This document shows positions 5,579 through 35,722 of a DNA stretch of 64,000 nt, piece by piece. This DNA comes from Dactylorhiza incarnata (lineage: Eukaryota; Streptophyta; Magnoliopsida; Asparagales; Orchidaceae). The stretch lies in NCBI GenBank assembly GCA_033032865.1, contig JAWHQI010000099.1, positions 2,861,001-2,925,000 on the forward strand, read 5' to 3'. The notes beneath the pieces are model-generated. The model did not search any database, had not been told where the DNA came from, and was given only the letters and a program-made list of their open reading frames with translations. The position numbers and the translations under genes are program-made. The first letter of the stretch is position 1. The number at the start of each line of letters is the position of its first letter.

Positions 5579-5580
5579 AG

Positions 5581-10440: not shown

Positions 10441-11040
10441 CTTCGTTAAAAATTATGTGCATTAAAAGTGTGTGAAAGTAATTTACTTGTGTTTTATTGT
10501 GCACTTTACTTTACATGTGTCTTGTATTTTATTGATTTAAATCAATTGTTAACATTGCCCAAAATACACTTATGTGCACATCATTATCTTTCATAACACT
10601 TCTTCTCATGAGTATTGGATTCTAATGTTTTATCTATACTACTTTTTATATAAGAAATGCACTAGATAACCTAGCATGATCTCTACAATGTTTTGGTACT
10701 TCTTGAACTTAAAATTAAGTAACATTGTTGTATAATCTCTCTTTGATATGTTCATTTCATGCTTGGTATCTTTATGAAAAACTTTGAGATTTTAAAAAGT
10801 TAAAACATCTTTCAAATTTGAACTAAAACTCATATTTTTACTTATGATTTTCATGCTTACAAAAAGATGTTTATTATAATCTTCCGCTTGCTTACAACTC
10901 TTATCTTTTTATTTGAAATCTCTTATATATACTATGCTTAAAATCTTTATCATTATCTATATTAAAAAACTCGATCATGCTTTATCATTTATAAGAAATG
11001 CCTCCTTACTACCCTCACCCCACCTTCTTTTGATAAAACC

Positions 11041-11297
11041 AAAAGGGGGAGATTAATTGAAGAAATCTATATAGGAGAAATATAGAAGAATAAGGGGAGA
11101 ATAATTAATGTAATCTATCATTTCGGGGGAGTAAAACATAAATTGCATTTATGTAGGGGGCATTAAGATAAGAGGAGTATGCACATTATCATGCTTATCA
11201 TATACTATAGTTGCACTATCATCTTGCTTATCTTATACTATAAACACTCTTGTTGATTTCTTGTTAAGAGGATTTGTTATTATCAAAAGGGGGAGAT
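11041..11297 (+). other. Element C polypurine-tract cluster
   Basis: AAAAGGGGGAGATT-type motifs occur at about 11040, 11090, 11126 and 11154. The last, at 11285-11297, directly abuts the 3' LTR and is the functional-position plus-strand primer. Repeated polypurine tracts upstream of the 3' LTR are a known Sirevirus trait. Confidence 0.85.
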
Positions 11298-12643
11298 TGT
11301 TGGACATGTGTGTCACATCCCTTTGTTTGAGAATAACAAATCTCAAATTGTATTTGATCTTTTATTTTGTGTGTTTATAGTGTGCAGGAACTATAGGTGC
11401 AATACTCCATAGGTAGAAAGCAGCAGAATTAAAAAATCTGGAATAATGCGCTACCGCCAGGCGCTAGCCGTCCGACGAAATTGAAGTTGCGTTCGACGAA
11501 AAGTTAGGTCGACGAAAATTTCGTTCGACGAAATTTCGTTCGACGAATTTGGCTCCGTTCGACGAAATTTGCGTTCGACGAACTTGAAGCTCCGATCGAC
11601 GAAAGTTCGTTCTGCCACGACACCGACAGTTTTCGCTACCGCCAGTGTTAGCGCTACCACCTGCCGCTATCTCAAATTTGTGCACAGCGCCATGCCACTG
11701 ACGGTTTCGCAACTGCTCCACACGAACGCTACCGCAGGCGCTAGGAGATACCGCAGGCGCTATCGTTAAGTTCTATAAAATGATGGGCTCTCTCTCGTTT
11801 TGAGTTGGTCCATCCCAGAGAGGTTGCTTGTGCCACAATTCCAGTGTTGTTATGCTGTCGAAGATGGATCTCCCACAAAAAGCTTAAGGAGAATTCTGGA
11901 GGAGGACTACGCCACGCTACATCCGAAGAAAGATCGCTTCAACCTCGCTTATGCTACAGCGATCCTTCATCCTCGACTCCAGAGATCTCATATAGGGAGT
12001 TTTATTATTGTTATCATTATTTTCATTCCATCCTTTTTGTAACCATTTAGAGAATTTGCCTTGTGTTGGCGACTAGGTCTGGGTAGGACTTAGGGGGAAA
12101 TTCGCCTTGTGTTGGTGACTAGGTCTAGGTGATTAGATCTAGGGGGTGCTCGAGGCCATATCCGGGGAAGGATTGGCTAGAGCGGCTTGAGGCCATATCC
12201 GGGGAAGGATAGGCTAAAGCCAACCGGTTTGTGGGGATAAAAGTCGGTATAGAAAAGGAAAAGATATTTACTTTTGTACGCCTCCGTTTTCTAGCGATAT
12301 TGAAATCAAATTTATGTAAACACCTTTTTAAATAAATACAATCATGTCTCTATTTGTGTTTACTTGATTTCTCTCCTTTGGCATTATCTCTAAAATATTG
12401 GTTACAAAGTTTTCAATTCAAATTACATTATCTAAATTGTTTATTTCAATCTCTTAATCACATAACAATTTAGTACTTATTTCTAAAATTGAAAATTATG
12501 ATATTCTCACAAATTAGCTAAATTGTCATTTTGCCTTTCTCATATTATAAAACAATTTAGTAATTTTCATAAAATTATAAGAAAGAAATTTTTATTCCCT
12601 TATTCACCCCCCCCCCCCTCTAAGGGCGTCGTAAGATCCAACA
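11298..12643 (+). repeat. Element C 3' LTR
   Basis: It has the same TGTTGGACATG start and CAACA end as the 5' LTR, with scattered substitutions (about six in the first 125 bases). TATA box at 11773-11781. The C-tract before TCTAAGG is shorter than in the 5' copy. It is followed directly by the CAAGC duplication. Confidence 0.93.
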
Positions 12644-13729: not shown

Positions 13730-15323
13730 TGTTGGGTATTGAATCCACAATATCCTAGATTTGTGAGAAGTCAACCTTGAACCAAGGTGAATTGCTAGTG
13801 TATTTGATATTGTCTCGTAGTTATGATCTTGCAGGTGATAGATGCTAAGTGTAGACCAATGTCAGATCATAATGGGACATTAAACATAGTCTCATGCAAT
13901 GTAATCCCTCATTGTGTGGAACATGGTGTAGACTCAGGTGTGATCTCTCAATTGGGATACACTTTATTTTCAACGCTCTTAAAGCTTGGAAGATGGAAGA
14001 GTTGTTGGTGTTCTAGAGAAGAAAGGAGTAATGTTCAGAAATTTTGCTAAGGGTATTTCTCGAGAAATCAAAGGTATCTCTCGAGAAATCCAATTCATTT
14101 CTCAAGAAGTCCTCTCTAGTTTTCGAGAAATTCTTCTATGTTTTCTATTCTTTTGTTTCTAAGGAATTTCTCGAGAAGTCCTTTATTTCTCGAGAAGTTG
14201 AATTCATTTCTCGATACGTCTTAATTGTTCTCGAGAAATCTTTTCTATTTTCCTTTGAAAGTTTTTCTCAGTGGTTTCTCGAGAAGTCTTATGTTCTCCC
14301 GAGAAATCGAAGCCATATCTCGAGAAGTCCCTTTATTCTCGAGAAATTCTCTTCCAGTCCTCTCGAAAGCTTTTTCCAGCCTTATCTCAGTTTCTTGCAT
14401 CCATTTCTCGAGATGTAAAGTTCATTTCTCGAGAAGTCAACTCTATTTCTCGAGAAATCCATATTGTCTCAAGAAAATTATTTTCTTCCTCTGCTGCTTT
14501 GAAATCCGGTTCCTGACGGGATTTTATTTTCTTCTGACGGACTTGACGACACGTGTGAACGGTGTTAAAGTTAATCTTACCATAAATCAAGGCCTCTTAG
14601 CCGTTACTTATGATTGATATATAAGGCTTCTATCTGGTCTTATCTCAACCCTAATTATAATCTTTCTTATCTTCCATTCTATCGGATCATCGTGAAGAAA
14701 CTGCTACCTTCAGCCATTGTTGAAGGATCAATCTCTCTCTCTCAATCAATCGATTCCTTCTAAAGAAAATATTTGACAGATCAGCGCTCTAATCATCTAC
14801 AACAATCTATTGGATTGTGTCGAATCCTAAAAATCAGATCTGGGATTTCAATCGTTTCTCCCTCTTCTTCTAGCCAAAGTTTTTCAAGACTCGAGGAGGA
14901 AGAAGATCTCAGAAGTTCAGATCTGTAAAAGTTTTGTTAAGTATTTCATTGTACTCCATATCATTTTCTTGTAGGAGAGTTTTTCTCCGAGTTGTGGCAG
15001 AGTGTTTCTCCGAGTTGTAGGAGCAGTGCCTCCAAGTTTGTAGGAGATTTGTCTCCGAGTTGTAGGAGTTATGACTCTGAGATTGTAGGATCATTCTTGA
15101 TCTGAGATTTTGAGAAGTAGCCAAGGCTAGCTGTGGTACTAGATTGGTGAGGCTCGAAAGTGGAGTACCCAAGATCAGGGAACCACTATAAATTCCTTGT
15201 GTCGTCTATGATTGTGATTTGCTTTCTGTGATTATCTTTTTATTAAGTATTTATTCCGCAAAAGACACAGAATTCACCTATTCACCCCCTCTAGGTGATT
15301 TAGGTAGGCAACTAGATACTTCA
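13730..15323 (+). repeat. Element A 3' LTR
   Basis: It begins TGTTGGGTATTGAATCC and ends ATACTTCA after TTCACCCCCTCTAGGTGATTT, closely related at both ends to the LTR of element E (TGTTGGGTATTGTATCC...ATACTTTCA). It has a U3 palindrome array at 14055-14465 and a TATA box (TATATAAG) at 14618-14625. R/U5 contains repeated TTGTAGGAG...CTCCGAG words near 14970-15090, also seen in E. Length about 1594 bases. Confidence 0.92.
14055..14465 (+). repeat. U3 palindrome array (TTTCTCGAGAAA) of the element A LTR
   Basis: About 14 copies of a CTCGAG-centred palindrome, perfect at 14055-14068, end about 150 bases before the LTR TATA box. The same motif occurs upstream of the internal TATA box at 2656. Open frames through the array, rich in Ser, Arg and Glu, are artefacts of the repeat. 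Confidence 0.88.
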
Positions 15324-16900: not shown

Positions 16901-17210
16901 TGTTGGGTATTGTATCCACAATAGCCCTGATTTGAAGAAGTCCCCTTCAAACTAGGATGAATTGTAGTTGTATTTGATTATGCTCTTTAGCTGTGTTGTG
17001 ACAGGTCATTCCATTCTAGGTACAAACCAATGTCAGTTTTCAATGAGCCGTCAAACACAGGCTTGTGCAATGTAATCCCTCATTGTATAGACCAAAGTGT
17101 TGGCTCATGTGAAATCTCTCTATTGGGATGTACCTCATTTCCTAAGTGCAAGAAAAGGAGGACTGGAGCTGTTGATGGACTTTCCATAGAAAGGAAGTTT
17201 TTCCAAGTAA

Positions 17211-17420
17211 AATTCGGTTATATCATTCAGAGACGTATAGTCGAATTCGACTATATAGTTGGGATGGATATAATCGAATTCGGTGGATCTTAGTTCGAAT
17301 TCCTTTGAAGAATTAGATTAACCGAATTCGGTTATTAAATTCGGTCATCGCAATTCGGTTATATCATTTAACCGAATTCGATTCGGATTCTTCCATTCGG
17401 TTATTCCATTTAACCGAATC
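17211..17420 (+). repeat. U3 palindrome array (AACCGAATTCGGTT) of the element E LTR
   Basis: Perfect AACCGAATTCGGTT is at 17320-17333, with several partial copies (TCGAATTCGA, CGAATTCGG, AACCGAATTCGATTCGG) around it. The array ends about 118 bases before the LTR TATA box. The same motif is used at 23849-23960 before the accessory ORF. An identical copy is in the 3' LTR at about 27302-27511. Confidence 0.88.
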
Positions 17421-17537
17421 GGTCTGCAATAATTCTTCCGGTTCATTTTTGAATGCGCGTTTCCTAGGGCTTCTTCCATGTACAGTACACGTGGAGTTAG
17501 ATCCGTATTTCGCGTTTATGACCGTTGTAGAAGACAG

Positions 17538-17545
17538 TATAAATA
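17538..17545 (+). promoter_or_regulatory. Element E LTR TATA box
   Basis: TATAAATA in the 5' LTR, downstream of the U3 palindromes. The 3' LTR copy is at 27629-27636. It is the likely core promoter of the genomic RNA, by position. Confidence 0.75.
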
Positions 17546-18278
17546 CCTAAGGATTATTTCCAGATAACAACAATCAAAGATTGAAGAAGAAATCGCATAT
17601 TATCTCTAACGGCCGACTGTTCTCACGAAAGTGATTCGTCTCCGACATAGCCAGCGATTATTGTTTCGTCTTCTAAAGATTCAATCGACAAGATCAAGAT
17701 CTGATTTGCTCTCATCTTCTGTTGATCAAGTCGATTCAAGTTCTCAGATCTAGCTTCAAATCGTTTTCAAGATTTCTTCATTCTTCATTCACAAAGGACT
17801 GAAGTTCAAGGCTAAGAAGAAGGAATCTATTTCTCAAGATCTGAAGAAGAACTTCATCTGAAGTTTAAGAAGATTGTTTCCAATCTACGTTGTGTTGTAA
17901 TAAACATTTTTATAAACTTTGTAGGAAGCTTGCTTCCGAGTGTTGTGTAGATCCTTGGTTAAGGATTGAGTTGTAGGAGTTGTTTTTACTCCGAGTTGTA
18001 GGAGTGGTGCACTCCGAGTTGTAGGAGTTGTTACTCCGAGGTGTAAGATTATTTTGATCTGAGTTTGGTGAAGTAGCCGAGTCTAGCCTCGAAGAGCTAG
18101 ATAGGCGAGGCGGGAAAGAGGAGTACCCACATCGGGGAACCTCTATAAAATCCTTGTGTCTGAGCTGTGCTTTATTGTGTGCTTTTCTGTGTTAAATTTT
18201 TTAATTCCGCGTAAAGACATAGAATCCACCTATTCACCCCCCTCTAGGTGATTTAGGCCGCAACTAGATACTTTCAAT

Positions 18279-18289
18279 TGGTATCAGAG
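18279..18289 (+). other. Element E primer-binding site
   Basis: TGGTATCAGAG, starting two bases after the 5' LTR, is complementary to the 3' end of plant initiator-Met tRNA. The next base is G where the canonical site has C. Confidence 0.9.
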
Positions 18290-18354
18290 GGAGGTTGTTC
18301 GCTATAAGGTTAACACCTTGAACAAGGTCTCCTTATCTAGTTGCCTAAGCAAGT

Positions 18355-20637
18355 ATGTCTGGCATGGATAAGACCAAGGATTCCGTCAAGCTTCCAGTCT
18401 GCACAAAAGAGAATTTTCCTATGTGGAAGGAGAGAGTCAGATTCTTCATGGAGGCTGCTGATCCAAGAATATTTCAGATTGTGGAAGAAGGTCCTCATGT
18501 TCCTATGAAACCATCTTCCATAAACTCTACAATTATGGTCGCCAAGAAGATGCTGGAACTCACAAAGGATGAGATTGCACTGGTCTCTCTGGACAAGAAG
18601 GCAAAGAATATCATTGCAGGTGCAGTCGATGATTCCATGTTGCAGAATCTTCTTCACTGCAAGTCCGCCAAGGAAATGTGGGACTCTCTGGTTGTTCTGA
18701 TGGAAGGAACAGATGAAGTAAGGGATGATCGAAGATCATTGCTGAACCAAGAATACGAAGCCTTCAAGCAACGCTCTGGTGAATCCATTTCTGATACTTA
18801 TGAGAAGTTCTTTAAGATCGTAAATGGTCTTAGGAACTATGATCGTGAATTCACTACTGGCGAACTTAATGATAAATTCCTAAGATCCCTGACCAAAGAA
18901 TGGGACACTAAAGTTATAGCCATTAGAGAATTCGGAAAACTTGGATCAACGGAGCCACAAATGCTGTTTGGGAAGCTCTTGTCCCATGAATTGAAGTTGA
19001 ACACCCGTAAAGCTGAAGAAGAAGGAACCAGGGCCTCTGGAAGGGAGAAGTCCACTGCACTTAAAGCTGTAAGTTCAAGAAAAGGCAAGGCTCTCCCACC
19101 TGTCAGGAGATCCTCCTCTGATGAAGATAAATCTGATGCTAGCCCCTCAGGCTCAGAAATGTCAGATGAAGAGTTCTCTTTACTCTCCAAGCAGTTCAAA
19201 AAGTTCTTTAACAAACAAAGGAACATGAGAGGTCAAACCTCGTCTTCTCGTCATAGAAGATCAAACCGTAATGAGGATCATCACAAAAAGAAGCATGAAG
19301 ATGACAGGTATAAATCTAAACCTAGTAAACACTCTTCTAACGATATCATTTGCTATTGCTGTAATAAGCCAGGACACATAATTGCGGAGTGTCCATATAA
19401 GAAAAAGGAAGGCTCAAAGAAAGAGGATAAGAAATCCTACAAAGGTAGAAGGAAAGAAAAGAGCCTCATTGCAAAGAAGCCAAAAACTCTGAGTGACAGC
19501 GACTCAGAGGTGTCAAGCACTGATGAAGAAGCCTACTTTGGGCTTATGGCACAAACGGATGATGAAGCAAGCGACACCTCATATAAGGCAAAGGTGAATC
19601 TTCATACTCCTCTTTCTGCCTCTGAGTGTGAAACTGCATCCAGAGCAAATGAAGACTATTATTCACAGGATGAGTCAGAATTAATGACTCAGTACAAAGC
19701 TCTTTTGCAAAGCTTTGACAAATGCCGCAAGGTTGTCAGATCTCAAGCAAAAGAAATTGTCTCTCTCAAGAACGTGGAATCAGCTCTGAGAGAGGAAATC
19801 GAAAGATTAACTCCCCTCGGAAATGAAGTCCAATCCTTGAAGGAGGAATTAAGAAGCTCTACTGAATCATCAATTCTGAAAGAGAAACTTATAACTGAAC
19901 TGGAAGAAAAGCTGGTGGCAGAGAAGAAAATATCTGAAAGTTTCAACAAGCCAAAAAATGTTCTTCCTCTTATTTATAAGTTCTCCACTCCTGGGAAGGT
20001 TAGTGGCATTGGTCATGAGGCTGAAAGTAGTAAGGCTGCCGAGATAAAAGTCAAAAGAGGTAAAGGGAAGGCTGATCAAAGTCAACCTTCGTTCAAGAAG
20101 GTCGTTTTTCCGACAAACCCGCTTGACTTTGAAACATCCTATGGTCATCTCACTAGACCAATACCTGTTGAATCTAGCAATAGATATCAGGGATGGAGCC
20201 GACCTCGAAACTTTGACTCGACTCCTTTCAAGGCACCTTATGAAGAAGTAATTCTCAAAGACCATGGTCCATTTGTTCATGGATCAGTTAAAAAGAAAGC
20301 ACCAAAAGTTAAATCTGTTAGTGCTAAGCCTAATGAGAAGAAGGAACCCTGTGTTTGTTGCAAACATGAGGCATCCACCTCTAAGAAGGTTGCTCCTACT
20401 AGACCCCCCGTTCAAAAGGTAAAGCAGGAGAACAAGAGAAGGTACAACCGATTTGATTGTTGGTGCTGTGGCAAAGTTGGTCACTTCGCCATAGATTGCT
20501 GGTTTAATTACAGTTATGTTAAGACCCCACGAGGTAACAATGCTAGAGTGACTCCTCGCACTGTTAACACTCATGTTGGTGGTCATCTGACAAGGAACCA
20601 AGGACCCAAATCTATTTGGGTTCCTAAGGGCAATTGA
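18355..20637 (+). CDS. gag: Element E Gag (capsid/nucleocapsid polyprotein)
   Basis: This 760-residue Gag would form the virus-like particle and package the element RNA. Residues about 10-220 are a UBN2/DUF4219-type copia gag domain (FPMWKERVRFFM near 22-33, AKEMWDSL near 103). Two CCHC zinc knuckles are present: CYCCNKPGHIIAEC (333-346) and CWCCGKVGHFAIDC (702-715). Between them lies a long Lys/Glu/Ser-rich region, probably coiled-coil near 440-520. It ends in the IWVPKGN motif. Gag this long with two knuckles far apart exceeds the usual copia gag but fits Sirevirus gag. The ATG lies 66 bases after the primer-binding site. Pol follows in the +1 frame after two stop codons. Confidence 0.95.
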   Translation: MSGMDKTKDSVKLPVCTKENFPMWKERVRFFMEAADPRIFQIVEEGPHVPMKPSSINSTIMVAKKMLELTKDEIALVSLDKKAKNIIAGAVDDSMLQNLLHCKSAKEMWDSLVVLMEGTDEVRDDRRSLLNQEYEAFKQRSGESISDTYEKFFKIVNGLRNYDREFTTGELNDKFLRSLTKEWDTKVIAIREFGKLGSTEPQMLFGKLLSHELKLNTRKAEEEGTRASGREKSTALKAVSSRKGKALPPVRRSSSDEDKSDASPSGSEMSDEEFSLLSKQFKKFFNKQRNMRGQTSSSRHRRSNRNEDHHKKKHEDDRYKSKPSKHSSNDIICYCCNKPGHIIAECPYKKKEGSKKEDKKSYKGRRKEKSLIAKKPKTLSDSDSEVSSTDEEAYFGLMAQTDDEASDTSYKAKVNLHTPLSASECETASRANEDYYSQDESELMTQYKALLQSFDKCRKVVRSQAKEIVSLKNVESALREEIERLTPLGNEVQSLKEELRSSTESSILKEKLITELEEKLVAEKKISESFNKPKNVLPLIYKFSTPGKVSGIGHEAESSKAAEIKVKRGKGKADQSQPSFKKVVFPTNPLDFETSYGHLTRPIPVESSNRYQGWSRPRNFDSTPFKAPYEEVILKDHGPFVHGSVKKKAPKVKSVSAKPNEKKEPCVCCKHEASTSKKVAPTRPPVQKVKQENKRRYNRFDCWCCGKVGHFAIDCWFNYSYVKTPRGNNARVTPRTVNTHVGGHLTRNQGPKSIWVPKGN

Positions 20638-20644: not shown

Positions 20645-23600
20645 TTGCAGGTATGTCCAAAGGCCAATTCAAATCCTATATGGTACTTGGACAGTGGATG
20701 TTCACGGCACATGACCGGAACAAGAAGTTTGTTACAAGAGTATACACCCGTGAAAGATGGACCAAAAGTTATTTTTGGCGGATCTGATCGAGGAATCACA
20801 AAAGGCTACGGTATGATCACTAATGGTACAGTCTCTTTCACAGACGTGGCTTATGTTAATGGATTACAACATAATCTCATTAGCATAAGTCAACTTTGTG
20901 ACAAAGGCTATATGGTAGAATTCTACAAGGACAAGTGCTTGATAAAGTCGTCTGATAAGTCAGAAACTATTTTAACAGGCACTCGGAGTAGAAATATCTT
21001 TTGTTTAAATTTTCTTTGTTTAGACTCTTCTACACCAGTGTGTCTTTTAGCAAAAGATAGTGCATCTCTCTGTGACCAGTGGCACAAGAGACTAGCACAT
21101 ATTAATTTCAAAACAATAAGTATGTTATTCTCTCACAACTTAGTTCGTGACGCTCCAGATGTTAAGTGCATTAAAGAGAGACCTTGTCATGCCTGCCAAA
21201 TGGGTAAGCAGACTCGGGCTACCTTTAAGAGCATTATTGGCAAAGATTCTACCAGATGCTTATATCTGCTCCATATGGACTTGTTTGGTCCCATGCCAAT
21301 CCGAAGTTTAGGAGGCAAGTCTTATACGCTGGTTATTGTAGATGATTACTCACGCTTTACTTGGGTATTCTTTCTGAAACACAAGTCAGACACCTTTGAC
21401 TCGTTCACCACATTCGTCAAGCAAATTCAGAATGAACTAGAATGTTCTGTGGTCAAAATCAGAAGTGACCATGGTACAGAATTCAAGTCTGGGGCTATGA
21501 CCGAATTTTGTGAAAGCCTAGGTATCTTTCATGAGTTTTCCTCTCCTCGTACTCCACAACAAAATGGAGTAGCTGAGAGAAAGAATAGAACACTCATAGA
21601 GGCTTGCAGAACAATGTTGAGTGACTCTTCTCTCCCAGAATACTTTTGGGCTGAAGGCATCAACACTGCTTGCCACGTGCAAAACAGAGCACTAATCAAC
21701 AAGAACCATCATAAGACTCCTTATGAACTCCTGAAGGGCAAGAAGCCAACCTTGTCTTATTTTAGAATCTTTGGCAGTAAATGCTTCGTGCTTAATAACG
21801 GGAAATATTACAAAACTAAATTTAGTGAAAAATGTTTTGAAGGTATTTTCGTAGGATATAGTAGCCATAGTAAGGCATATAGGATTTTCAACAAGAAAAC
21901 CCTGGTTGTAGAAGAAACTTTTAATGTTATATTTGATGAAACTAGTATGCTTCAAAGCAGCTCTTCTAGTGTTCTTGTTGAAGATGCTGATGCAAGGTTC
22001 AAGGACATAAACTTGGAAGAAGCTGTAAAGGAAGATGCTCCAAAGTCTATTGAAGTCAACATTCCATCCGCACATGAGGAAGATGAACCTCAAGAAGATG
22101 AAGATGTACCGGAAGTGCAGGAACCCCGTGGAAATCCATATGCTGGAATGATCCGACACTTAAGGGACCATCCTGCAGAGCAAATTATTGGAGATACCCA
22201 TGTTGGTGTAAGAACAAGAAGAGGTACAGCTAATGAAGTTTTACACTTAAGTTTTCTTTCACAGGTTGAGCCAAAGAAATTCAATGAAGCAAAGAACGAT
22301 GCTTCATGGATCATAGCAATGCAAGAAGAACTCAATCAATTTAAGAGATGCAAAGTGTGGACGCTTGTACCCAGACCCAAAGGACAGAATGTCATTGGAA
22401 CAAAATGGGTATTCAGAAACAAGTTGGACGAGGATGGTGTGATCATCAAGAACAAGGCCCGACTTGTTGCTCAAGGGTATAGACAAGAAGAAGGGATCGA
22501 CTTCGACCAAACTTTTGCTCCCGTAGCAAGGCTTGAAGCGATCAGGTTGTTTCTAGCGTATGCTGCTCACAAAGGATTTAAAGTCTATCAAATGGACGTG
22601 AAGTCAGCCTTCCTTAATGGTGATATAAAGGAAGAAGTATACGTAGAACAACCCCCAGGTTTCGTAGACTCCTCATTCCCTGATTATGTTTATTTTCTTC
22701 GAAAAGCTTTATATGGTCTCAAGCAAGCTCCCCGTGCTTGGTATGAGACGTTGTCTACCTTCCTCTTTGAAAACAAATTCACAAGAGGCAAGATAGACAA
22801 GACATTATTTCTTAGGGAAGTAAAAGGCAAGATTTTGCTAGTGCAAATCTATGTCGATGACATTATTTTCGGATCTACCGATGATAACCTCTGCAAAAAG
22901 TTTTCCAACTTAATGCAAGGGAAATTTGAAATGAGTAGTATGGGAGAGCTGAAGTATTTCTTAGGACTTCAGGTAAAGCAGTCTGAAGATGGAATTTTCA
23001 TCTCTCAGACGAAGTTTACCAAAGAGTTAATTAAGAAATTCGGAATGGAGAACGCAACCTCTATGAGGACTCCAATGGGTTCAGCTATGTCTCTAGACAA
23101 GGATGAGAAAGGGAAACCTTTTGATGAAACCAAGTTTAGAAGCATAATTGGATCCTTGCTCTACCTTACTGCAAGTAGACCGGATATAATGTTTTCAACA
23201 TGTGTGTGTGCTAGATTTCAGGTGAACACTAAGGAATCTCACTACTCAGCTGCAAAGCGGATTTTGAGATATCTTAAAGGCACACCAAATCTTGGCTTAT
23301 GGTACCCAAGAAGTAATGATTTCGAGCTCACTGGTTTTTCAGATGCTGATTTTGCAGGAAGCAAAGATGACAGGAAAAGTACTTCAGGAACGTGCCAATT
23401 CTTAGGAAAACGGCTCATCTCCTGGAGTAGCAAGAAGCAAAATTGTGTTGCCATCTCAACTGCTGAATCGGAGTATATCTCTGCAGGCAGTTGTTGTGCA
23501 CAATTGCTCTGGATAAGGAACCAACTTGAGGATTACAACCTAAAGCTCAAAGAAATTCCTATGTACTGTGATTCATCAAGCGCCATAGCAATTGCCAACA

Positions 23601-23797
23601 ATCCCGTGTCTCACAGCAGGACAAAGCACATAGAAATTCGCTATCACTTCATCCGAGAGCATGTGGAGAACAAAGACATTGATCTTAGCTATGTCCCGAC
23701 AGATCGGCAAATTGCAGATATTTTTACTAAGCCGCTCGACGAATCAAAGTTCAATTATTTCAAAATGGAGCTTGGTATGCTAAACAAAGACTCTTAG
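20645..23797 (+). CDS. pol: Element E Pol (protease, integrase, reverse transcriptase, RNase H)
   Basis: This 1050-residue polyprotein has the copia domain order. Protease: [12 protein letters not shown], Asp16. Integrase zinc finger: His147, His152, Cys181, Cys184. Integrase core: Asp212, Asp275, Glu311, a D-x62-D-x35-E triad. RT: Asp651 and the YVDD box at 736-739. RNase H: Asp900, Glu941, Asp976. It ends at TAG 23795-23797. No catalytic residue is missing. There is no ATG at the start: the frame opens at TTG 20645 just after TGA 20642-20644 and is +1 relative to gag, whose own stop is at 20635-20637. How Pol is made is therefore open (see findings). Confidence 0.96.
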
Positions 23798-23842: not shown

Positions 23843-23960
23843 TCACTTAACCGAATTCGGTTACTCTATTTAACCGAATCCGGTGATTCCATTTAACCGA
23901 ATCCGGTGATTCCACTTAACCTAATCCGGCGATATCGATTAACCGAATTCGACTAATTCC
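23843..23960 (+). repeat. Palindrome array upstream of the element E accessory ORF
   Basis: Five tandem copies of a unit of about 25 bases (TTAACCGAATCCGGTGATTCCAT-like) are present, the first a perfect AACCGAATTCGGTT at 23849-23862. The same word occurs in the LTR U3. The array lies 46 bases after the pol stop and ends about 110 bases before the internal TATA box. Confidence 0.88.
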
Positions 23961-24033
23961 CTTTAGCCGGATGACGAATTTTCTGGAATTCAACTCTTTC
24001 CTAAATGGAATTCGAAGGGTCACGGTTCAAATC

Positions 24034-24080
24034 TCAGGTACGCGCTCTCTCTCTAAATCTTCATAACACTATATAAATGG
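24034..24080 (+). promoter_or_regulatory. Candidate internal promoter of the element E accessory ORF
   Basis: TCAGGTACGCGC (24034-24045) is followed by a TATA box within CTATATAAATGG (24069-24080), about 175 bases before the conserved ATG at 24250. Element A has the same pair at 2603 and 2656, at similar distance from its ATG. Array-to-TATA spacing (about 110) resembles that in E's LTR (about 118). Function is inferred; no transcript evidence is available here. Confidence 0.55.
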
Positions 24081-24141
24081 TTCTTAAAAGAGAAATACGA
24101 ACTCTTGTTTCCGAATCGCACGGCTCTTCAACTTCCGATTC

Positions 24142-26784
24142 GTGCGTCCGTTCGTGCTCCTCTTCTCCGACCGGCGATTGTTAGTCTCCGTCGATTCTTC
24201 GTCTTCCTCAACCGACAGTCAACAGATTCTTGCTCGACAGTCATTTGCAATGCCTAAGAAATCGTCTGAGAAGCTGCTTTTTGGGAGTGAGCTAGTCAGA
24301 ACTGGTTTCGACACCTCCGTAGATGAATTCAGAAATATTGTCCTCGTTCTTGAGGTGGCCGGTCTGGGCTATGTTCTAGAACACCCCTGCAAGGTGTTGG
24401 AATCAGAAGTTCTAAAATTCTTCAAGCATGCAGAACTGAGAAAGAGAGGCTCTGTAATAAAAAGCAGGATTGGTGATGTCCAAATCAAGATTACTGCCTC
24501 AAGTCTGACCAAGCTTCTCAAGCTACCTGAAGTTTCAGTAACAGATACACTATCTCCCAAGGATTTCAAACAAGCTCTCCGGTTCTGTGGTTTGCCCAAA
24601 GGAACAAAATCCATTTATCGCAAGCAGATGAATGAGGAAGGAAAATTACTATCTGATATCATGGGAAAGGTTCTCCTCTGTAAAGTCGGCTCTCACGACT
24701 ATCTCTCCAATGATATGTTCAAGTTGCTGGGATCAGTTATCTGCAGAAAAAGGGTTGACTGGGGAAAAGTGTTATTTGACAGAATCTCCGCTAGTTTAAA
24801 CACTCCAAATTTCGGGAGAATTCTCTCTCTTTATCTCTCTCGTCTAGATAAAACAAGATTCAGCATGAAGAATGGAACTCCCCTCCATCATTTCAAAAGA
24901 ATTGACTCCTCTATGATTGAGAGGTGGTCCAGGAAAGTTGGTGAGCCACGAGTAATATCTCCCAGGGCTCCAAAAGTTAAGAGAACTTCCCGCGTAGAAT
25001 CTGACAGTGAAGCAGAAAGTGATCCATCCAGACAGAAGGACAGTGATCAGGAAGCTGAGCAACACCATGAGAATCTAGATAGTGAGCAAGAAAGTGAGAA
25101 ACAGGATGAAGATCTGAATGAAAGAGACGGTGAACCCTCCAAGGGGGAGTGTTCCAAGCTGCCCGAATCTGATAAAGAAGAAAATGCTGATAGCCACATC
25201 GACAGTGATGGCAATGATGAAGGGGGAGATGATCCTGATACTGATGCTGTGAAGACAGGTCAGTCAGAGAAGAGTCCAGCTGTTTCTCCTAAGGCTGCTA
25301 TCCCCGCTCAAATTGAGGGGGAGAATGTTCTTTCTGACTTCTCTGCTCCTGAACAAGATAGGCAAGACCAGGCAGATCTTCCTACAACCCCTGAACACGT
25401 TACTATCCTCATTGAAGATAACAGTGCTGCAGGGCCCTCTGCCTCCACTTCAAAAGTTAAGGGAAAGTCTGTGCAAGCTCCCAAGATTCACAAAATCCAA
25501 ATAACAGTGGAAGACAGGAGAGATGATGAACCCACCCCTCCTCCAGCTCAAAATGAAGAAACTCTTGATACTCAACAGTTTTATCACTATATGAAGGATG
25601 TCGATTCAGCAGACTTACTCGTAGCAGAAGATGATTTTGGAATCTCTTCTCGCTTGCAAGATCATCCTCCCTCTGCCGTCGACTCATTGCTACTCAATAT
25701 GGAAGAAATGCTTGTCAAACAGAAAAAGTATTTTGAATTTGCTATTCATCAGATCTTTGACAAGACCAGAGCTATAGACAAAGGAATGGGCAATCACTTG
25801 CAATCTCTAACTCATAGCATGGACAAGGTAAAAGAAAAACAGGACGAGTACTTCTCTCTGGGTGCATCCTCCCTTAAGTTTGTTGGGGATGGATTACATG
25901 CCCTTTGTGAGAATACTACAAAGCTCTCTGAAAATCAAGAGTTCATGTTTCAACATGATGAACAGGGAAGATCTTCAGTTCAGAACTCTTTCCAGGCTTT
26001 CAAGACAGAGATCATCCAAACCCTAACTGAAGAAGTCAGAAAGGGGGAGGAAAGACTGCATGAACGTATTCAAACTCAAATCTTTGACTTAAATAGAGAG
26101 TTAGAAGGAAGGATTCAGGAATCTCAGTTAAATGTTCAATCTCAGATTGCTGAAGTTTCAAGAAATATTGATAGCAAATTTCAAGACCTATATGGTTATC
26201 TTCACCAAAATCAGGTTTGGTTGCATAATGAGCTATCAAGAGGCTTTGCCTATGGTTTCCAAGGGACAGGCCAATCTTCTGAGCAGCCAGCATTTCCTTC
26301 TGAAGTATTCCATCCTGACACTCAGGTTGCTGCTCCGTCTGAACCTCTTATTCCCTCTGAAGGTTATCATTGGTCAGATGATGAAGAAGAATTCTCCAGG
26401 AAGAGAGCTAGAGTTGATCTAGGAGGATCAAGCTCAGGTGGTTTCTTGCATGATGCTAGAAGGGCTGCAGGTCCCAGATTTCTAGAACCAAGAGCAACTC
26501 ATCCCAGGAAGATAGTTGGAGAACTGTGGAGTCCGGAATCCAGGAATATTATTTTGGACACTTACAATCTTGTCATGAACTCAAATGAGTCTGTTGACAA
26601 TCACTATGATAGAGATGAGATCCACAAATGGGAGATGGCTAAGCTCAAAAGAAGAATTCACTACAGGAACCATCAAGATGATGAAAAGCCTCCTTCTCCT
26701 CCTCCAAGATACTATCCAAAACCAAGAGCATATTTTTCCAGACAATTGAAGAAAATTCAAAAGGCAAAGACAAAAGAGAAATGA
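24142..26784 (+). CDS. Element E env-like accessory protein (unknown function)
   Basis: This open frame of 880 codons lies after pol. Similarity to element A's copy begins at the in-frame ATG at 24250 (residue 37), so the likely protein is about 844 residues. An N-terminal globular region (GSELVRTGF, about 50-280) is followed by a long Glu/Asp/Ser-rich, presumably disordered middle (about 285-500). A coiled-coil region (about 540-720) and a Pro- and Arg/Lys-rich tail (PPSPPPRYYPKPR) complete it. I see no signal peptide, membrane span or cleavage motif, so the label env-like reflects position only. GGGGGAG motifs lie near 25143, 25222, 25316 and 26043. The N-terminal fold may be distantly related to the accessory ORF of element D, but that is by eye. 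Confidence 0.85.
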   Translation: MRPFVLLFSDRRLLVSVDSSSSSTDSQQILARQSFAMPKKSSEKLLFGSELVRTGFDTSVDEFRNIVLVLEVAGLGYVLEHPCKVLESEVLKFFKHAELRKRGSVIKSRIGDVQIKITASSLTKLLKLPEVSVTDTLSPKDFKQALRFCGLPKGTKSIYRKQMNEEGKLLSDIMGKVLLCKVGSHDYLSNDMFKLLGSVICRKRVDWGKVLFDRISASLNTPNFGRILSLYLSRLDKTRFSMKNGTPLHHFKRIDSSMIERWSRKVGEPRVISPRAPKVKRTSRVESDSEAESDPSRQKDSDQEAEQHHENLDSEQESEKQDEDLNERDGEPSKGECSKLPESDKEENADSHIDSDGNDEGGDDPDTDAVKTGQSEKSPAVSPKAAIPAQIEGENVLSDFSAPEQDRQDQADLPTTPEHVTILIEDNSAAGPSASTSKVKGKSVQAPKIHKIQITVEDRRDDEPTPPPAQNEETLDTQQFYHYMKDVDSADLLVAEDDFGISSRLQDHPPSAVDSLLLNMEEMLVKQKKYFEFAIHQIFDKTRAIDKGMGNHLQSLTHSMDKVKEKQDEYFSLGASSLKFVGDGLHALCENTTKLSENQEFMFQHDEQGRSSVQNSFQAFKTEIIQTLTEEVRKGEERLHERIQTQIFDLNRELEGRIQESQLNVQSQIAEVSRNIDSKFQDLYGYLHQNQVWLHNELSRGFAYGFQGTGQSSEQPAFPSEVFHPDTQVAAPSEPLIPSEGYHWSDDEEEFSRKRARVDLGGSSSGGFLHDARRAAGPRFLEPRATHPRKIVGELWSPESRNIILDTYNLVMNSNESVDNHYDRDEIHKWEMAKLKRRIHYRNHQDDEKPPSPPPRYYPKPRAYFSRQLKKIQKAKTKEK

Positions 26785-26991: not shown

Positions 26992-28367
26992 TGTTGGGTA
27001 TTGTATCCACAATAGCCCTGATTTGAAGAAGTCCCCTTCAAACTAGGATGAATTGTAGTTGTATTTGATTATGCTCTTTAGCTGTGTTGTGACAGGTCAT
27101 TCCATTCTAGGTACAAACCAATGTCAGTTTTCAATGAGCCGTCAAACACAGGCTTGTGCAATGTAATCCCTCATTGTATAGACCAAAGTGTTGGCTCATG
27201 TGAAATCTCTCTATTGGGATGTACCTCATTTCCTAAGTGCAAGAAAAGGAGGACTGGAGCTGTTGATGGACTTTCCATAGAAAGGAAGTTTTTCCAAGTA
27301 AAATTCGGTTATATCATTCAGAGACGTATAGTCGAATTCGACTATATAGTTGGGATGGATATAATCGAATTCGGTGGATCTTAGTTCGAATTCCTTTGAA
27401 GAATTAGATTAACCGAATTCGGTTATTAAATTCGGTCATCGCAATTCGGTTATATCATTTAACCGAATTCGATTCGGATTCTTCCATTCGGTTATTCCAT
27501 TTAACCGAATCGGTCTGCAATAATTCTTCCGGTTCATTTTTGAATGCGCGTTTCCTAGGGCTTCTTCCATGTACAGTACACGTGGAGTTAGATCCGTATT
27601 TCGCGTTTATGACCGTTGTAGAAGACAGTATAAATACCTAAGGATTATTTCCAGATAACAACAATCAAAGATTGAAGAAGAAATCGCATATTATCTCTAA
27701 CGGCCGACTGTTCTCACGAAAGTGATTCGTCTCCGACATAGCCAGCGATTATTGTTTCGTCTTCTAAAGATTCAATCGACAAGATCAAGATCTGATTTGC
27801 TCTCATCTTCTGTTGATCAAGTCGATTCAAGTTCTCAGATCTAGCTTCAAATCGTTTTCAAGATTTCTTCATTCTTCATTCACAAAGGACTGAAGTTCAA
27901 GGCTAAGAAGAAGGAATCTATTTCTCAAGATCTGAAGAAGAACTTCATCTGAAGTTTAAGAAGATTGTTTCCAATCTACGTTGTGTTGTAATAAACATTT
28001 TTATAAACTTTGTAGGAAGCTTGCTTCCGAGTGTTGTGTAGATCCTTGGTTAAGGATTGAGTTGTAGGAGTTGTTTTTACTCCGAGTTGTAGGAGTGGTG
28101 CACTCCGAGTTGTAGGAGTTGTTACTCCGAGGTGTAAGATTATTTTGATCTGAGTTTGGTGAAGTAGCCGAGTCTAGCCTCGAAGAGCTAGATAGGCGAG
28201 GCGGGAAAGAGGAGTACCCACATCGGGGAACCTCTATAAAATCCTTGTGTCTGAGCTGTGCTTTATTGTGTGCTTTTCTGTGTTAAATTTTTTAATTCCG
28301 CGTAAAGACATAGAATCCACCTATTCACCCCCCTCTAGGTGATTTAGGCCGCAACTAGATACTTTCA
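26992..28367 (+). repeat. Element E 3' LTR
   Basis: 1376 bases, offset from the 5' LTR by 10091, with no difference found on line-by-line reading. It ends ACTTTCA and is followed by the CTTGG duplication at 28368-28372. Confidence 0.97.
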
Positions 28368-28372: not shown

Positions 28373-30836
28373 GCCCTTCCTTGGCCTTGAAATTTTCCAG
28401 CAGATCTCTTGCTCTAGTCATATGCATGGAGCATCCACTGTCCAGATACTACTGATGGTTTGTGGTTGAACATCCTTCCCTCTGCACATGTAAATTAAAC
28501 ATTATTAATAAAGACCCTCTCATGTTGGGGTCTCTTCCTTCTATCATCATATGGAGATATGGAAGAATGAGATGGTCTTTCATTGTTCTCCCTTGGGTGA
28601 AGAAGTGATGCATTATTATGCCAGCAATATTTGTCAGTATGCCCTTATTTGGAGCAGCAAAGACATCTTAAGATAGACAAAGAAGATTTTGATGTTTGAT
28701 GATTTTGTGCAGGAAATATGCGTCGAGTAGAAATCGACGTAGTTTTAGAGTTGCGTCGAGTGCAATTCGACGAATCAGCATAGTCCCGTCGATAATCATT
28801 CGAAGTAAGATATTGGTTACGTCGAGTGTAATTCGACACACCCACATAGTTGCTTCGAGATGATGTCGACGCATATGCTGGAGTCCGTCGAGATATATTC
28901 GGCGTATTCCTAAAATTGCGTTGAGTTTTATTCGACGTATAATTCATATCATTCAGTGTTCGTGAATTTGAACTTACAATTTCCTTAAGCAAGTTAATTT
29001 CTAACCTTAATTTATCATTTTTGATCATTAAGTCTTGTCTAGCTTTATTGTAGGCATTTGTGTTATTTTTAAGAGTAGAAATGACAGAGTCAATGTGTGC
29101 TTGGTAATCATTTCTATATTCCTCAAAAGTTTCATCCATCTCTTATATTTCAATTTTATAACTTCTACATGTAGCACACTCATTATTCAAATCTAAATTT
29201 TCCAAGGGTTGTTTTCCTAGGATTCCTGGTTCATCACTAGTGTCTACCCTATTAAATGTGGTGAGTTTATTAGGGTTATCTTTCTTATGTTCTTTACATG
29301 ATTCTGATAAATTATTTGGTCTAGACCTAGAGGATGTTACTTGTCTATCACAAGCAAGTTTGCTAGTAAGTGATTGTGAATCTTGATTAAGATGATTAAA
29401 TCTCATTGAGAGAATTTTTGAAATCTCTTTGATCTTTTGTCTCCTTCCATTGAGGGAGTCTTCAAAGGCTTTTACCTTTGAGAGTTCTTTCCTTATATCT
29501 GAGTTTTCATTATCTAAAATGTCTATTTCTTTTTCTTTCTCAAGCAGTTCACATCTCAGATCATTGTTAACTGAGGAGGAGGGATCTTTACTAAGAGCTT
29601 TTATTTCAGATTTGATTGTTTCAAGTTCCTTTTGTTTGCTGATAAAATCTTTGCAACTTTTCTGAAAGCATTCTTTGAAATCTATTGAGGAGAAGTCAAA
29701 GTATTCAAAGATGCTTACCTCAGCATTATTAGTGGAATTTTCAAAGGCCATCAGACAAGCTTCTCCTGGTCCACCTTCTTCTTCATCATCAGATGAGAGG
29801 GAGCTTTATTCAGAGTCTGAGTCACTCTAGGTCTCAGCTATGAACCTTTTCTCTCCTCTCTTTCCTTTTCTCATGAGGGATTTTCTCTTATGCTCCTTCT
29901 TTTGCTTGTTCTTCTTATTCTTTTCTTCTTCAGGAAATTCAGTAGAGATGTGTCCTGGCTTCCTGCAATAGAAACAGATAACCTCCTGGTTATGAGTTTT
30001 ATCATACCTTAGCTTGTTTGAGCTCCTCTCTATTCTCCTGGACTCTTCTATCCTAACCCACTTTTTGAATCTCTTAGCCAAGGGATTACACATTTCCTCT
30101 TTAGTGGAGGAGGACTCTGCATCTGCAGTTTTTAATGCAAGAGTCCTCTCTTTAGGAGTTGGTGTCCTCTCATTGGCTTCTGATTCAGCTCTGCTTTTTA
30201 GTAGAAGCTCAAAGGATTTGAGCTTTCCCAAGAGAGCATCTGTTGATATCTCTCTGAGGCATCTAGAATCTCAGATGGCCCAGATTCTAGAGTCCCATGT
30301 GCTGGGAAAGCACATGAGGAGCTTGTCATTAATTTTTGTGAGAGAAATTTCCTTGTCAAGCCCTCTCAGCTCATTTCTGATGAGACTGAATTTATCATAC
30401 ATTTCTGTAATGCTTTCATCAGCCTTTTTCTTACAGTTCTCATATTGAGATATGAGAAGAGCCTTTGTATCTTTCCTCTCATTATAACTTCCTTCAACTA
30501 GTCTGGAGAGAGATTCTCAAATCTCTTTTGCAGAGTTGCAGTCAGCAACTTTCTGAAATATGTCATCAGACATAGTTGAGACCAGTATGTTCATGGCCTT
30601 GGCATCACATGCCTTGACCTTCTTCTCATCATCAATCCATTCTGCTATGAGAACTAAAGTTTGTATAAGTTTTCCACTGGTGTCCTTCCTTATTAGAGCT
30701 GGGGCACCTGTGAGGTGACATTGAAGATTTCATCATCAATAGAATTCATATATAGTTTTATTCTGGCCTTCCAGAGTGTAAACTTATTCAGATTACACAC
30801 TGGAGGTCTTGTTGAGGCATAATCCTTAGAACTCAT
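28373..30836 (-). pseudogene. Element B gag and start of protease, broken
   Basis: On the minus strand, ATG at 30836-30834 opens a UBN2-type gag (TRPPVCNLNKF, LYMNSID near the start). The reading is broken by several stops and frameshifts between 30800 and 30230. Open pieces follow at 30231-29827, 29751-29143 and 29139-28645. The first zinc knuckle (CFYCRKPGHISTEF) has lost its last Cys to Phe. The second (CLCC...GHTDKYC, near 28660-28620) contains a stop. The protease motif YLDSGCS is at 28448-28428, after a TGG-to-TAG change. A coiled-coil region lies near 29700-29300. The reading crosses E's insertion site into 16900. Confidence 0.88.
28717..28940 (-). repeat. CGTCGA/TCGACG inverted-repeat array inside element B gag
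   Basis: Eight or so words of the CGTCGAGTGCAATTCGACG type alternate on both strands within the gag coding region, just before its second zinc knuckle. They encode a repeated S-N-Y-T-R-R-N-like peptide. The same CGTCGA...TCGACG words make up the U3 array of B's LTR (32030-32450). Confidence 0.8.
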
Positions 30837-30935: not shown

Positions 30936-32630
30936 TGAAAGTGCATAGTGTGCCTCTGAGAATCCTCTAGAGAGGGGTTGAATAGGGATTTAAATTTATT
31001 TCTATCCTAACTGTGAAAACAATAAAATTAATCTAAGGATTTATGCTCACAAAAGAACTCAGGCAGAATAAACTTGTGCTGGAATGTAAAGCAGAGACAG
31101 TAGAATAAACTAGCTATAGAGACATCACAGAAAATTGACAACCAGAAGACACAGATTTTTTATAGAGTTTCCCCAAAATGTGGGTACTCCCCTCTTCTAC
31201 CACCTGGTAGGGATGCACCACTGTGTCTGAGTCTTTTGATAAGTTTGATAAGGAGACTCATAGAACCACTGATCTTTTGACAAGGAGATCATGAATCACC
31301 AGATCTTTTGATAAGGAGATCTTGCACCAGATCTTTTGATAAGGAGATCTTGAACCACTGAATCCTTTGAAGAGTGATTAATAAAACTCTTTTATAGAAT
31401 GAGATAGAAGGAGAGGAAAGAAGGTTATAGGAATTCTGTTCTCAGAATTCTTATGAGGACTGTATGAAGAACAACCAATTATGTTTCATAAAATCTGCTC
31501 TTGATTATCCTAACTGTGATGAATTACAGGTGCTTTGTATGTCAGATCCTTTGTGATCCTGCTGATTGAGATCTGGCTGCCATGAGATTGTGATGATTAG
31601 CAGCTCTCAGATCCTTTGTTCTATTTAGATGAAGATCAGCAGAGCTTTTCTTTTCTCTTTTCTGTGTTAGGGTTCCTGAGGGAGAGAGAAAAGGAAGCCC
31701 TAGCAAGAAGAAGAATAGCCGATTGTTATTAATGCTTTGTTTGTATCTGTCTTCTCTTCTCCTTTTATATTCTCTACTCAATTTCAAATTTCTTTCCCTT
31801 TCTGGTATGCCTTGAAAAGGTAATCTTCTGATGACATTCTCTTTCTTTCCTCTTTAATTCTAGGCTCGTCCACCTACAAGGAATATGGTTCCAAGAAACC
31901 TTTTGTGTCCTTCTTTAATGCTCCTTTCTATTTCAGGCAATTATTGAGCCGTTGGGGAACGGTCTTGAAGGATGTAGGCCATGAAAGAAGGATCAGAGAG
32001 ATAGCTGAAAAGATATACTCTTACAGATTGTATTCGACGTAGCGTCGAATTCATTTCTTCTCTTATCAACATAACTTTGAGTTTTTGTAGAAGTAGCTTC
32101 GATTTCATCTCTGCTCTGATTGAACTCTGCTAGTCGATGTTACGTCGACATATTATCGACGAGTACGTCGAGTTGACCTGCCTGGCTCTGAACTTCATCT
32201 TCTGCGTCGAGATGCAGTCGACGTTGCGTCGACTTTAGATGGCTTCGACAGATAACCTCTTCTGCTTTGAGTTGAAGTAGAAGTTGCGTCGACTTCACTA
32301 GTTACTCTGACAAGTCCCTAACCTCTACGTCGATATCTATTCGACGTAATGTCGACTTGAGTTACTTCGACAGAAGGGTTGAACCACTTGGACTTCTAGG
32401 CAGAGCAGCGTCGATATGGACTCGATGTTGCGTCGAATTCTATTCAACGCAAATATTAACTTAGCCCAATTTTGCTTCCCTTGATCTGGTCCTGATACCC
32501 TATGTTGAGTATGACATCCTAAGACATCTAATGACCAGATTACCCTCTTTATACAATGGGTAATTTACTCCTAGATAATAAAATCACTTTTAGTTAATTT
32601 GTTAAGTTAAATCAAGGGTTTTTCCCAACA
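30936..32630 (-). repeat. Element B 5' LTR
   Basis: On the minus strand it begins TGTTGGGAAAAACCC (32630) and ends TATGCACTTTCA (30936), about 1695 bases. The end carries the CCCCTCTCTAGAGG version of the Sirevirus terminus. TATA box TATAAAAGG near 31770-31762. U5 contains repeated CTTTTGATAAGGAGATC-type words (about 31230-31380 on the plus strand). Confidence 0.88.
32030..32450 (-). repeat. U3 inverted-repeat array (CGTCGA/TCGACG) of the element B LTR
   Basis: Repeated near-palindromes such as ATTCGACGTAGCGTCGAAT (near 32034) and TCGACGTTGCGTCGA lie upstream of the TATA box in minus-strand sense. They are related to the array in B's gag at 28717-28940. Confidence 0.82.
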
Positions 32631-34147: not shown

Positions 34148-35722
34148 GATGAGTAGTTTTTATACTCATCCTTTAGTATAGTTTTAATATATTTTTAATA
34201 TGAAATTATATAAATTATATGAATTATATCATATAAATCTTTCCATTTTTTATTTCATGAACTAACTTAAGTTTTTTCTGTATTTTCCAAGTTTTCTGGG
34301 CACTTTGACCAAAATTATCAAGTACACGCCCAAGGTCACGGGCGTGACCAAGGGGCGTGACAGCCTAGATGTGTTCCAGACCCAATTCCGCCACCCCGGG
34401 CAAATTCCGTGAAAATTTGCCAAGTACACGCCCCAGGTCATGGGCGTGACCAAGGGCGTGACCCAATGTCATGGTCGCGACCCGCCACCAGCAGCAGAAG
34501 CGCAATGCCACATCAATTAAAATTACACGCCCTCAGTCATGGGCGTGACCGAGGGCATGACATCCAGTCATGGGTGTGAATCATCCCGCGCTCTTTCCAG
34601 CTAAAAGCTTCCCGCCAGCAGCCTATTTTGAAAAGTACACGCCCTAGGTCACGGGCGTGACCAAGGGCATGACGTGCATGTAATGCCCGCAATTACTCCA
34701 GAAGGTGCCCTCTCCACTGCTACTTTGAATACACCCCTTACACGCCCTTGGTCACGGGCGTGACCAAGGGCGTGTAACACCAAATTTTCAGCTATTTAAA
34801 GGGTGCTTCTCCAGATGATCAGGAACGAATTTTTGGAGTTCTAGTTTTAGTTTGTGCACTGTTTTCTCATTTTCAAGTCCTTGTACTTTTCTTTCTAGTG
34901 CAATTGTAAGTTTCAATTCATGTACTTTTCTTTTCTAAGTGTAACTTTCATTTCAATAGCTTGTAATCTCAATTTCTTAGTTTGTAATTTGCATTTTCAA
35001 ATCAATAAAATTAGTTTTCTTAACTTCTTATTCCCCTCTTATTTTATCATGTTCTCTTTTATTCCTGCTAATTCCTTAATCTCAATGGGTAACTAAACTT
35101 CTATTAGAACTCGATCAAGATGATCCAAGGAATGATATTTGCAATGAAATAATTAGATCTCCTTCTTCCCTTCTTTGAAATACTTAAGATTTATCCTTAA
35201 TTTTATTGAGGTGGGATTATATTTTTGATATATAATTCTCATTCATGTTTTCGTAATTTAGTAGTTCAGAGACTCATAATTTGAATTGATCACTTTAGGA
35301 TAAAGAGAGTTGATTGCAACCCTTGAGAAAGGATGATATAGATCTCCCGGATTGGAGTCAAATCCAATAGAGGGGTTCATTATGAAAAAGCGAGTTTTAG
35401 GGGTTTTGATTCTAAAGCGAAAGTTTGATTGATCAACCTAAACTCAGTTGAGCATATCCTCGAGAGAGGTACGTTTATAATTCGGGAACCTCCACAGTCA
35501 AGTAGTTTCTTTAAGATATTAGAAGTTTTATTTCTTATATTCTGAGGTGATTCAATGATCGGGTGCTAGCTTTTAACCATCAAATTAATTCTATTAGTCT
35601 TTCTAATTTTTACTATTTTTAACCCAACTCCAAATTTCTAATTGATAAAATAATAGAGATTTTCCGAAGTAAAAGTATTCAACCACCCAGAGTCTAATAC
35701 GACCTTGGTTTTATAACCTATA
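34147..35722 (+). repeat. Element F 5' LTR
   Basis: It begins TGATGAGTAGTTTTTATACTCATC, itself a palindrome-like start, and ends AACCTATA. Five hairpin units of the CACGCCC...GGGCGTG type lie in 34321-34774. A TATA-like CTATTTAAAGG follows at about 34793-34803. The next base after 35722 is already element G sequence. Confidence 0.85.
34321..34774 (+). repeat. Hairpin array in the element F 5' LTR
   Basis: Five inverted-repeat units of about 34 bases built from CACGCCC, GGTCACG and their complements are spaced about 100 bases apart. The last (34741-34774) is a perfect inverted repeat with 16-base arms around GG, ending about 20 bases before the TATA-like box. The second LTR has the same five units in about 41275-41730. 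Confidence 0.88.

Follow-up and report, generated by a model that had tools for sequence, protein, structure and literature searches.

The closest described systems are the Sireviruses, in whose long terminal repeats (LTRs) Bousios et al. 2010 (PMC2829016) described palindromic repeats of the kind treated here. Such repeats were reported in the LTRs of 13 Sireviruses, with linker copies in the nine that carry ENV. These RM palindromes are clustered before the LTR TATA box, 77 of the 79 linker copies lie upstream of ENV, and CpG islands were described as well. An internal promoter was argued for in that paper, though not conclusively identified, and the hypothesis was credited to a 2002 paper; PMC3414828 lists an internal promoter among possible expression routes. 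According to PMC7264820, maize Grande gene23 (Gomez-Orte 2013) is reported to be transcribed from a promoter of its own; antisense open reading frames (ORFs) of Retand are covered by PMC11963269, and none of five accessory-ORF terms was found in the text of PMC6317226. The original prediction for our locus, which knew of no internal promoter described for such plant elements, has to be corrected on this point in view of PMC2829016 and of Grande gene23. Here we analysed 64,000 nucleotides (nt) of the orchid Dactylorhiza incarnata (positions 2861001-2925000 of contig JAWHQI010000099.1, from a genome of 3.27 Gb), called the window below, which consists of nested LTR retrotransposons including families A, B, C, D, E and F. 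A, E and D are Ty1/copia families of Sirevirus type, and in all three the palindrome found in U3 of that family's LTR is present again between pol and an accessory ORF (aORF), where it is followed by a TATA box. Judged from its sequence, this pol-aORF segment is probably a second RNA polymerase II promoter sharing a repeat-binding factor with the LTR.

As had been claimed beforehand, the order of array, TATA box and accessory ORF was seen in A, E and D, in D on the opposite strand, and in each family the internal palindrome is that of its own LTR U3. The matches are in excess of shuffled sequence. The E palindrome TAACCGAATTCGGTTA occurs exactly at 23848 internally and in both LTRs (17319 and 27410), and further internal units at 23871, 23894, 23917 and 23940 complete an array of 5 units with a period of 23 nt (23848-23955, plus strand). 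Allowing up to 4 mismatches, 17 matches are found in the window as against a mean of 3.5 and a maximum of 10 in 10 shuffles, and 5 of the 6 matches in the internal region of E lie within the pol-aORF gap. For the A palindrome ATTTCTCGAGAAAT with up to 3 mismatches the window holds 38 matches (shuffles: mean 7.1, maximum 12), 15 of them at 14055-14458 in the LTR at 13731-15323; 11 of the 13 internal matches are in the pol-aORF gap, where they make up the array at 2256-2550 (plus strand). Family D has two palindromes, D1 with 5 matches against 0.4 in shuffles and D2 at 7 places (14 rows, both strands) against 0.1, and its internal D1+D2 pair is present at 58038-58077 on the plus strand, antisense to pol. 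The units are mostly 19-22 nt apart in both the LTR and the gap of A; in E they are 23 nt apart in the gap and irregularly spaced in the LTR. Such a spacing, about two helical turns, would allow a protein to bind unit after unit along the same face of the DNA. The palindrome cores are CGG-CCG in D1, CCG-CGG in E and CTCGAG, with no CGG, in A.

The internal TATA boxes were located at 2656-2660 in A (2656-2667 as a whole, plus strand, from the sequence), at 24070 in E and at 58085 in D (TATAAATA, 58085-58092, plus strand), and those of the LTRs at 14618 in A, 27629 in E and 56213-56207 on the minus strand in D. From array to TATA box D has 7 nt inside and 8 nt in the LTR, and E has 116 nt inside and 114 nt in the LTR when counted from a shortened last unit, AACCGAATCGGT. 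Taken alone, the TATA boxes are weak evidence, such boxes being common here; as chance could give every gap one without great improbability, conservation is the real test.

A genome search with the E module gave 478 candidates, of which 40 were scored, and 15 of the 40 (window included) reached the full score. In a search with amino acids (aa) 1-240 of the aORF the best 150 of 40163 candidates were scored; all of these 150 are at least 95% identical, and 2 have an internal stop. Ten of the 150 places, picked by protein for varied identity and frame length, were compared with E itself (11 sequences). Of these, 11 of 11 carry TATATAA in their gap and TATAAAT in their LTR; the gap array ends 112-116 nt before its TATA box, and the shortened last unit of the LTR array ends 114-115 nt before that of the LTR. 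Each gap has 4 to 7 repeats if up to 4 mismatches are allowed, or 3 to 7 with a stricter pattern, and for sequence S9 the LTR repeat count is a lower bound. It may be noted that the gap arrays vary by whole 23-nt units, L047 and L048 being one unit short. The stretch before and at the TATA box (24000-24077, plus strand, with TATATAAA at 24070) is the best conserved part of the E gap: 70 of 79 columns are invariant at 24000-24078, compared with 85 of 171 at 24079-24249 (p=8e-10, nominal as the sequences are related). The five copies of subfamily E2 (L041-L045, about 92% identical) show 0/76 fixed differences from E1 within the block versus 23/360 around it (p=0.02, likewise nominal).

A genome search with D gave 2233 candidates, of which 40 were scored; the window reached 100% and the remaining ones 93-97%, and 20 copies were compared with the window (21 sequences). 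The internal TATA box is intact in 21 of 21, and the LTR has TATAAAT in 19 of 20 copies and TATAAAA in the remaining one. Copies L036-L039 differ from the other 17 at 21 positions (up to 2 exceptions allowed, gaps counted), 15 of which fall in the module flanks, 5 in the intron described below, 1 in the ORF and none in the 93 nt with the palindromes and TATA box; that is, 0/93 at 58035-58127 as against 15/145 in the flanks (p=0.0006, with bounds set post hoc). Between the module and the ORF an intron of the 5′ untranslated region (UTR) is predicted at 58188-58727 on the plus strand (AAG/GTATGG to TTTGCAG/AATGG), whose composition of 42% T and 7% C sets it apart from the exons; its donor is kept in 20 of 21 copies and its acceptor in 19 of 21. 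The D leader holds no ATG if this intron is spliced and 16 if it is not. Being antisense, such an intron would not be spliced from genomic RNA and could therefore survive retrotransposition. The TATA box and array spacing, on whose conservation the original prediction had staked itself, are thus conserved in E with its ten relatives and in the D copies, and for E and D the module is both real and conserved.

The pol-aORF gap is also the only internal CpG island of E. Among 336 windows of 300 nt, the 14 with the highest CpG observed/expected ratio (1.44-1.93) all overlap the gap, and those clear of it do not exceed 0.83; the LTR reaches 2.17 and the accessory ORF has 0.25. In A (1-4231) the ten highest CpG windows are at the array or its edges. 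The predicted 5′ leader of E (24100-24249, plus strand, from a putative start site) contains no ATG. Over the 11 sequences the distance from TATA box to start codon is 165-252 nt, and no ATG is found in the 1864 nt between TATA+30 and the start codon, as compared with 38 in the 2964 nt upstream of the TATA box.

In the mechanism that we propose, the array of the family palindrome would be bound by a DNA-binding factor, probably dimeric, and the bound array would activate the TATA box, giving rise to a short accessory-ORF mRNA, so that LTR and accessory transcripts would be switched on together. The module points in the same direction as gag-pol in E and A; in D it opposes gag-pol and would yield an antisense mRNA from which the 5′ UTR intron is removed. 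The transcription start, the splicing and the binding of a shared factor are what we infer here. As for that factor, one encoded by the element would fit the shared repeat as well as the single host factor first suggested.

Several observations weigh against a promoter, and some of them favour another explanation. The TATA boxes have a chance probability in the shuffled gap of 0.097 (A), 0.027 (E) and 0.024 (D), and window stretches of the same length hold one at frequencies of 0.21, 0.23 and 0.09, respectively. The spacing within a family, described beforehand as similar, is so in D; it is unlike in A (105 nt inside, 159 nt in the LTR), and in E the equality needs the shortened unit, as the LTR distance becomes 153 nt when the count is restricted to 16-mers with at most 4 mismatches (153-154 nt over E and the ten relatives). 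The E2 and D copies were retrieved with the module in the query, and copies without it would be missed. In D the minority bases of D1 amount to 2.4%, like the flanks (upstream 2.7, intron 1.4, aORF 1.3), only the 15 nt up to and including the TATA box are invariant (0/315 bases), and the module is not among the ten highest CpG windows of D. The E leader is C/T-rich, and 45% of its shuffles also lack ATG; the A and E internal leaders after the TATA box are unlike (39/200 shuffles as good). Further D repeat pairs lie at 58636-58675, in the predicted intron, and at 59871-59910, past the antisense ORF, so that 2 of 3 pairs are away from the TATA box, and the palindromes of the F LTR (31990-32480, minus strand; CGTCGA..TCGACG) cluster again at 28721-28940 inside a gag-region reading frame. 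These D and F placements would be expected if the internal repeats were not a promoter but general binding sites, found at more than one place in an element and acting in silencing, anti-silencing, insulation or as CpG islands, and CpG islands bearing repeats are known from Sirevirus LTRs (PMC2829016). However, the concentration of internal matches in one gap (E 5/6, A 11/13), the steady TATA distance and the conserved block speak against general sites, which we consider unlikely. None of 100 shuffles folds as well as the gap RNA (z -2.78), which leaves room for an RNA role, and the array might then be an RNA element whose hairpins guide aORF translation from genomic RNA; but palindromes raise the folding energy anyway, the LTR repeats are upstream of the TATA box and so outside the RNA 5′ end, and the D copy is antisense, which makes this explanation extremely improbable.

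A promoter has also to be weighed against the model of plant gypsy env-like elements, in which the aORF would be translated from a spliced RNA begun in the 5′ LTR; the internal repeats would then serve otherwise. PMC7264820 and PMC2829016 tell of splicing reported in Bagy2 and of predicted acceptors in Bagy2 and Athila; the CAGGTACG block upstream of the internal TATA box in A and E could be read in this sense, and 1 of the 8 YAG sites in the E gap (24218) has 72% pyrimidines upstream. Yet all 8 listed sites have only 17-39% T upstream by a crude measure, the steady TATA distance and the CpG island are left unexplained, and the D accessory ORF, being antisense, cannot be supplied by the LTR transcript. 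We therefore give splicing from the LTR a low probability, similar to that of general binding sites. Simple readthrough of the pol stop was ruled out for E, since each of the three frames is closed by stops before the aORF is reached. The origin of the module is a separate question. Flanks were compared in 14 pairs with 200 single-base shuffles each. The A and E elements are homologous in their LTR heads and U5 (0/200 shuffles as good) as well as in their internal pre-TATA flanks (0/200), and the internal flank was therefore inherited from a common A-E ancestor. The palindrome is wholly different between A and E, yet matched between LTR and gap within each. Since the flank is shared by descent and the palindromes changed at both sites, the module does not look like a fresh LTR copy. 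A recent copy captured by recombination would be compatible with a promoter role and would account for the identical 16-nt palindrome in E; it is very unlikely given these homologous internal flanks and the lack of similarity between the E LTR and E internal pre-TATA flanks (132/200), and the flanks of A itself are only weakly alike, in a T-rich stretch (8/200). A short common stretch was found between the E LTR leader and the A internal leader (1/200). The agreement of LTR and gap within each family would call for a factor that recognises the two sites alike, or for an exchange of sequence between them. Of the original wording, a promoter derived from or co-evolving with that of the LTR, the second half is supported and the first, in view of the flanks, is not. 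A block common to A (2585-2620) and E (24000-24045) upstream of the internal TATA box, TCGAARGGTCA with CAGGTACG, is a possible binding site or splice donor.

The E accessory protein is under constraint on account of the codon differences fixed between E1 and E2 (three copies): 63 are synonymous and 57 nonsynonymous over the whole aORF with no stops, and the counts are 26 and 5 in aa 1-240 as against 16 and 31 in aa 241-480. Between A and E the protein identity is 35% in aa 8-110, 52% in 108-194, 41% in 192-230, 28% in 549-667 and 53% in 760-835. A strong membrane segment was not found by a crude method (best 19-residue hydropathy 1.23 in E and 1.32 in D). Against Transposase_32 (PF20167; curated cut-off 45 bits) D scores 32.4 and the A piece 17.5, both below the cut-off, and E aa 1-253 has no match at E<=10. 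In view of the missing membrane segment, the absence of a Pfam match at E<=0.001 in E and these sub-cut-off matches in A and D, 'env-like' is a name only. A comparison of the accessory proteins of E and D gave no homology (BLASTP E 8.4; hhalign probability 0.1), and the structure model of the E N-terminal domain (predicted local distance difference test 45) was too poor for fold comparison. It is conceivable, if rather doubtful, that the aORF encodes the element's own regulator, whose N-terminal domain would bind the family palindrome as a dimer and activate or de-silence both the LTR and the internal promoter, as a copia counterpart of VANC. If so, repeat and protein would change together, which would explain the unrelated palindromes in the related A and E, each changed at both sites, and the nearly fixed aa 1-240 in E subfamilies with the same palindrome. 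The N-terminal part is not the sole divergent region, and the A-E identities allow such a regulator rather than prove it.

Element E is a complete, young insertion, with 5′ (16901-18276) and 3′ (26992-28367) LTRs on the plus strand that are identical over 1376 nt (0 mismatches) and a target duplication CTTGG; the 3′ LTR palindromes are at 27329-27514. On the same strand follow the primer-binding site TGGTATCAGAG (18279-18289, by pattern scan), the gag ORF (18349-20637; Pfam Retrotran_gag_2, 1.2e-21), the pol ORF (20645-23797; Pfam rve and RVT_2, integrase then reverse transcriptase (RT), the copia order) and the sense aORF of 844 aa (24250-26784). E shows the Sirevirus hallmarks tested: the copia order of gag and pol domains was found by Pfam in gag and pol of E and in pol of D, and the Sirevirus TATCAGAG primer-binding site and polyC integrase signal in E (18279, 18235 and 28326). 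Identical polypurine tracts of E are at 25141, 25220, 26041 and 26981, the first three within the aORF. The E family appears to have expanded recently, with identical LTRs, 15 full-score modules among 40 scored and 148 of the 150 scored N-terminal matches stop-free. Element A is a decayed relative of E (RT protein identity 83-85%, 63% in the stretch preceding RT), truncated where the window begins and with element B inserted in it. Its aORF (2816-4231, plus strand) has stops and frameshifts and is split by B, and its 3′ LTR (13731-15323, plus strand) was bounded by eye.

Element D is on the minus strand, with its 3′ LTR at 55410-56689 (boundaries by eye; palindromes 56222-56540), pol at 60135-63250 in two overlapping frames (Pfam RVT_2, rve) and, on the plus strand, the antisense accessory ORF of 282 aa at 58729-59577 (Pfam Transposase_32 1.1e-7, under the curated cut-off). 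Its polyC integrase signal is at 55431, its primer-binding site falls outside the window, and 5 identical polypurine tracts are present at 56691-56977 on the minus strand. A partial copy of the D repeats is seen near 63510-63550 in the gag region. Poly-C/poly-G runs are unusually long at 52474-52510, 54070-54095 and 55431-55455, and the last two resemble expanded integrase signals. Element B (4232-12643) is inserted into A with CAAGC at both sides; no ORF of at least 150 aa was found in it at 7046-11297, pol itself not being searched for, and as a single control (n=1) its LTR carries TTCGACGAA repeats without internal copies in B. In element C the palindrome GGTCACGGGCGTGACC is directly before a TATTTAAA box in its repeat (34735-34810), and a similar arrangement is present near 41700. 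With its gag cluster, F shows such repeats in yet another, third type of place. No relatives were found among viral contigs in 3 scans.

How the ORF after pol is expressed has been an open question in Sireviruses, and the elements described here supply an exactly placed TATA box together with its distance and a predicted start region; A and E form a natural comparison, as their repeats differ at both sites at once. If an element-encoded protein does read the shared repeat, the role of the 'env-like' gene would be explained. Foamy viruses, which are animal retroviruses, have an internal promoter before their 3′ accessory genes, and the second promoter predicted here has a similar place, a likeness of layout. 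Grande is a Ty3/gypsy element, and VANDAL elements are DNA transposons. In VANDAL/VANC anti-silencing of Arabidopsis (PMC5735166) the target motifs, too, vary from one related element to another and commonly form tandem repeats; binding was shown there and is a prediction for our modules. D resembles Grande gene23 (PMC7264820, PMC11963269) in having an antisense accessory gene between pol and the 3′ LTR with its own promoter, predicted in D and reported from experiment in Grande; D is a Ty1/copia element, and its cis-element is common with its own LTR. E is like soybean SIRE1, a Sirevirus with an env-like ORF after pol, which relies on stop-codon suppression (as told in PMC2829016), whereas in E no frame is free of stops and the gap is 452 nt long. 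A TATA box after the internal array and an antisense copia version were not found in the literature compared, with subscription journals mostly outside its coverage, and their novelty in print is not established. The nearest likeness is to the Sirevirus RM palindromes (PMC2829016), clustered before the LTR TATA box and before the accessory or ENV ORF, with CpG islands (here in E and A). The A and E palindromes lack the CGG-CCG order, a core also missing from Tnd-1 in that set, and unlike the RM report we describe a TATA box after the internal array, a steady distance, conservation data and an antisense version. What is seen at this locus is a known phenomenon made concrete, with the addition of an antisense version and of evidence of concerted change.

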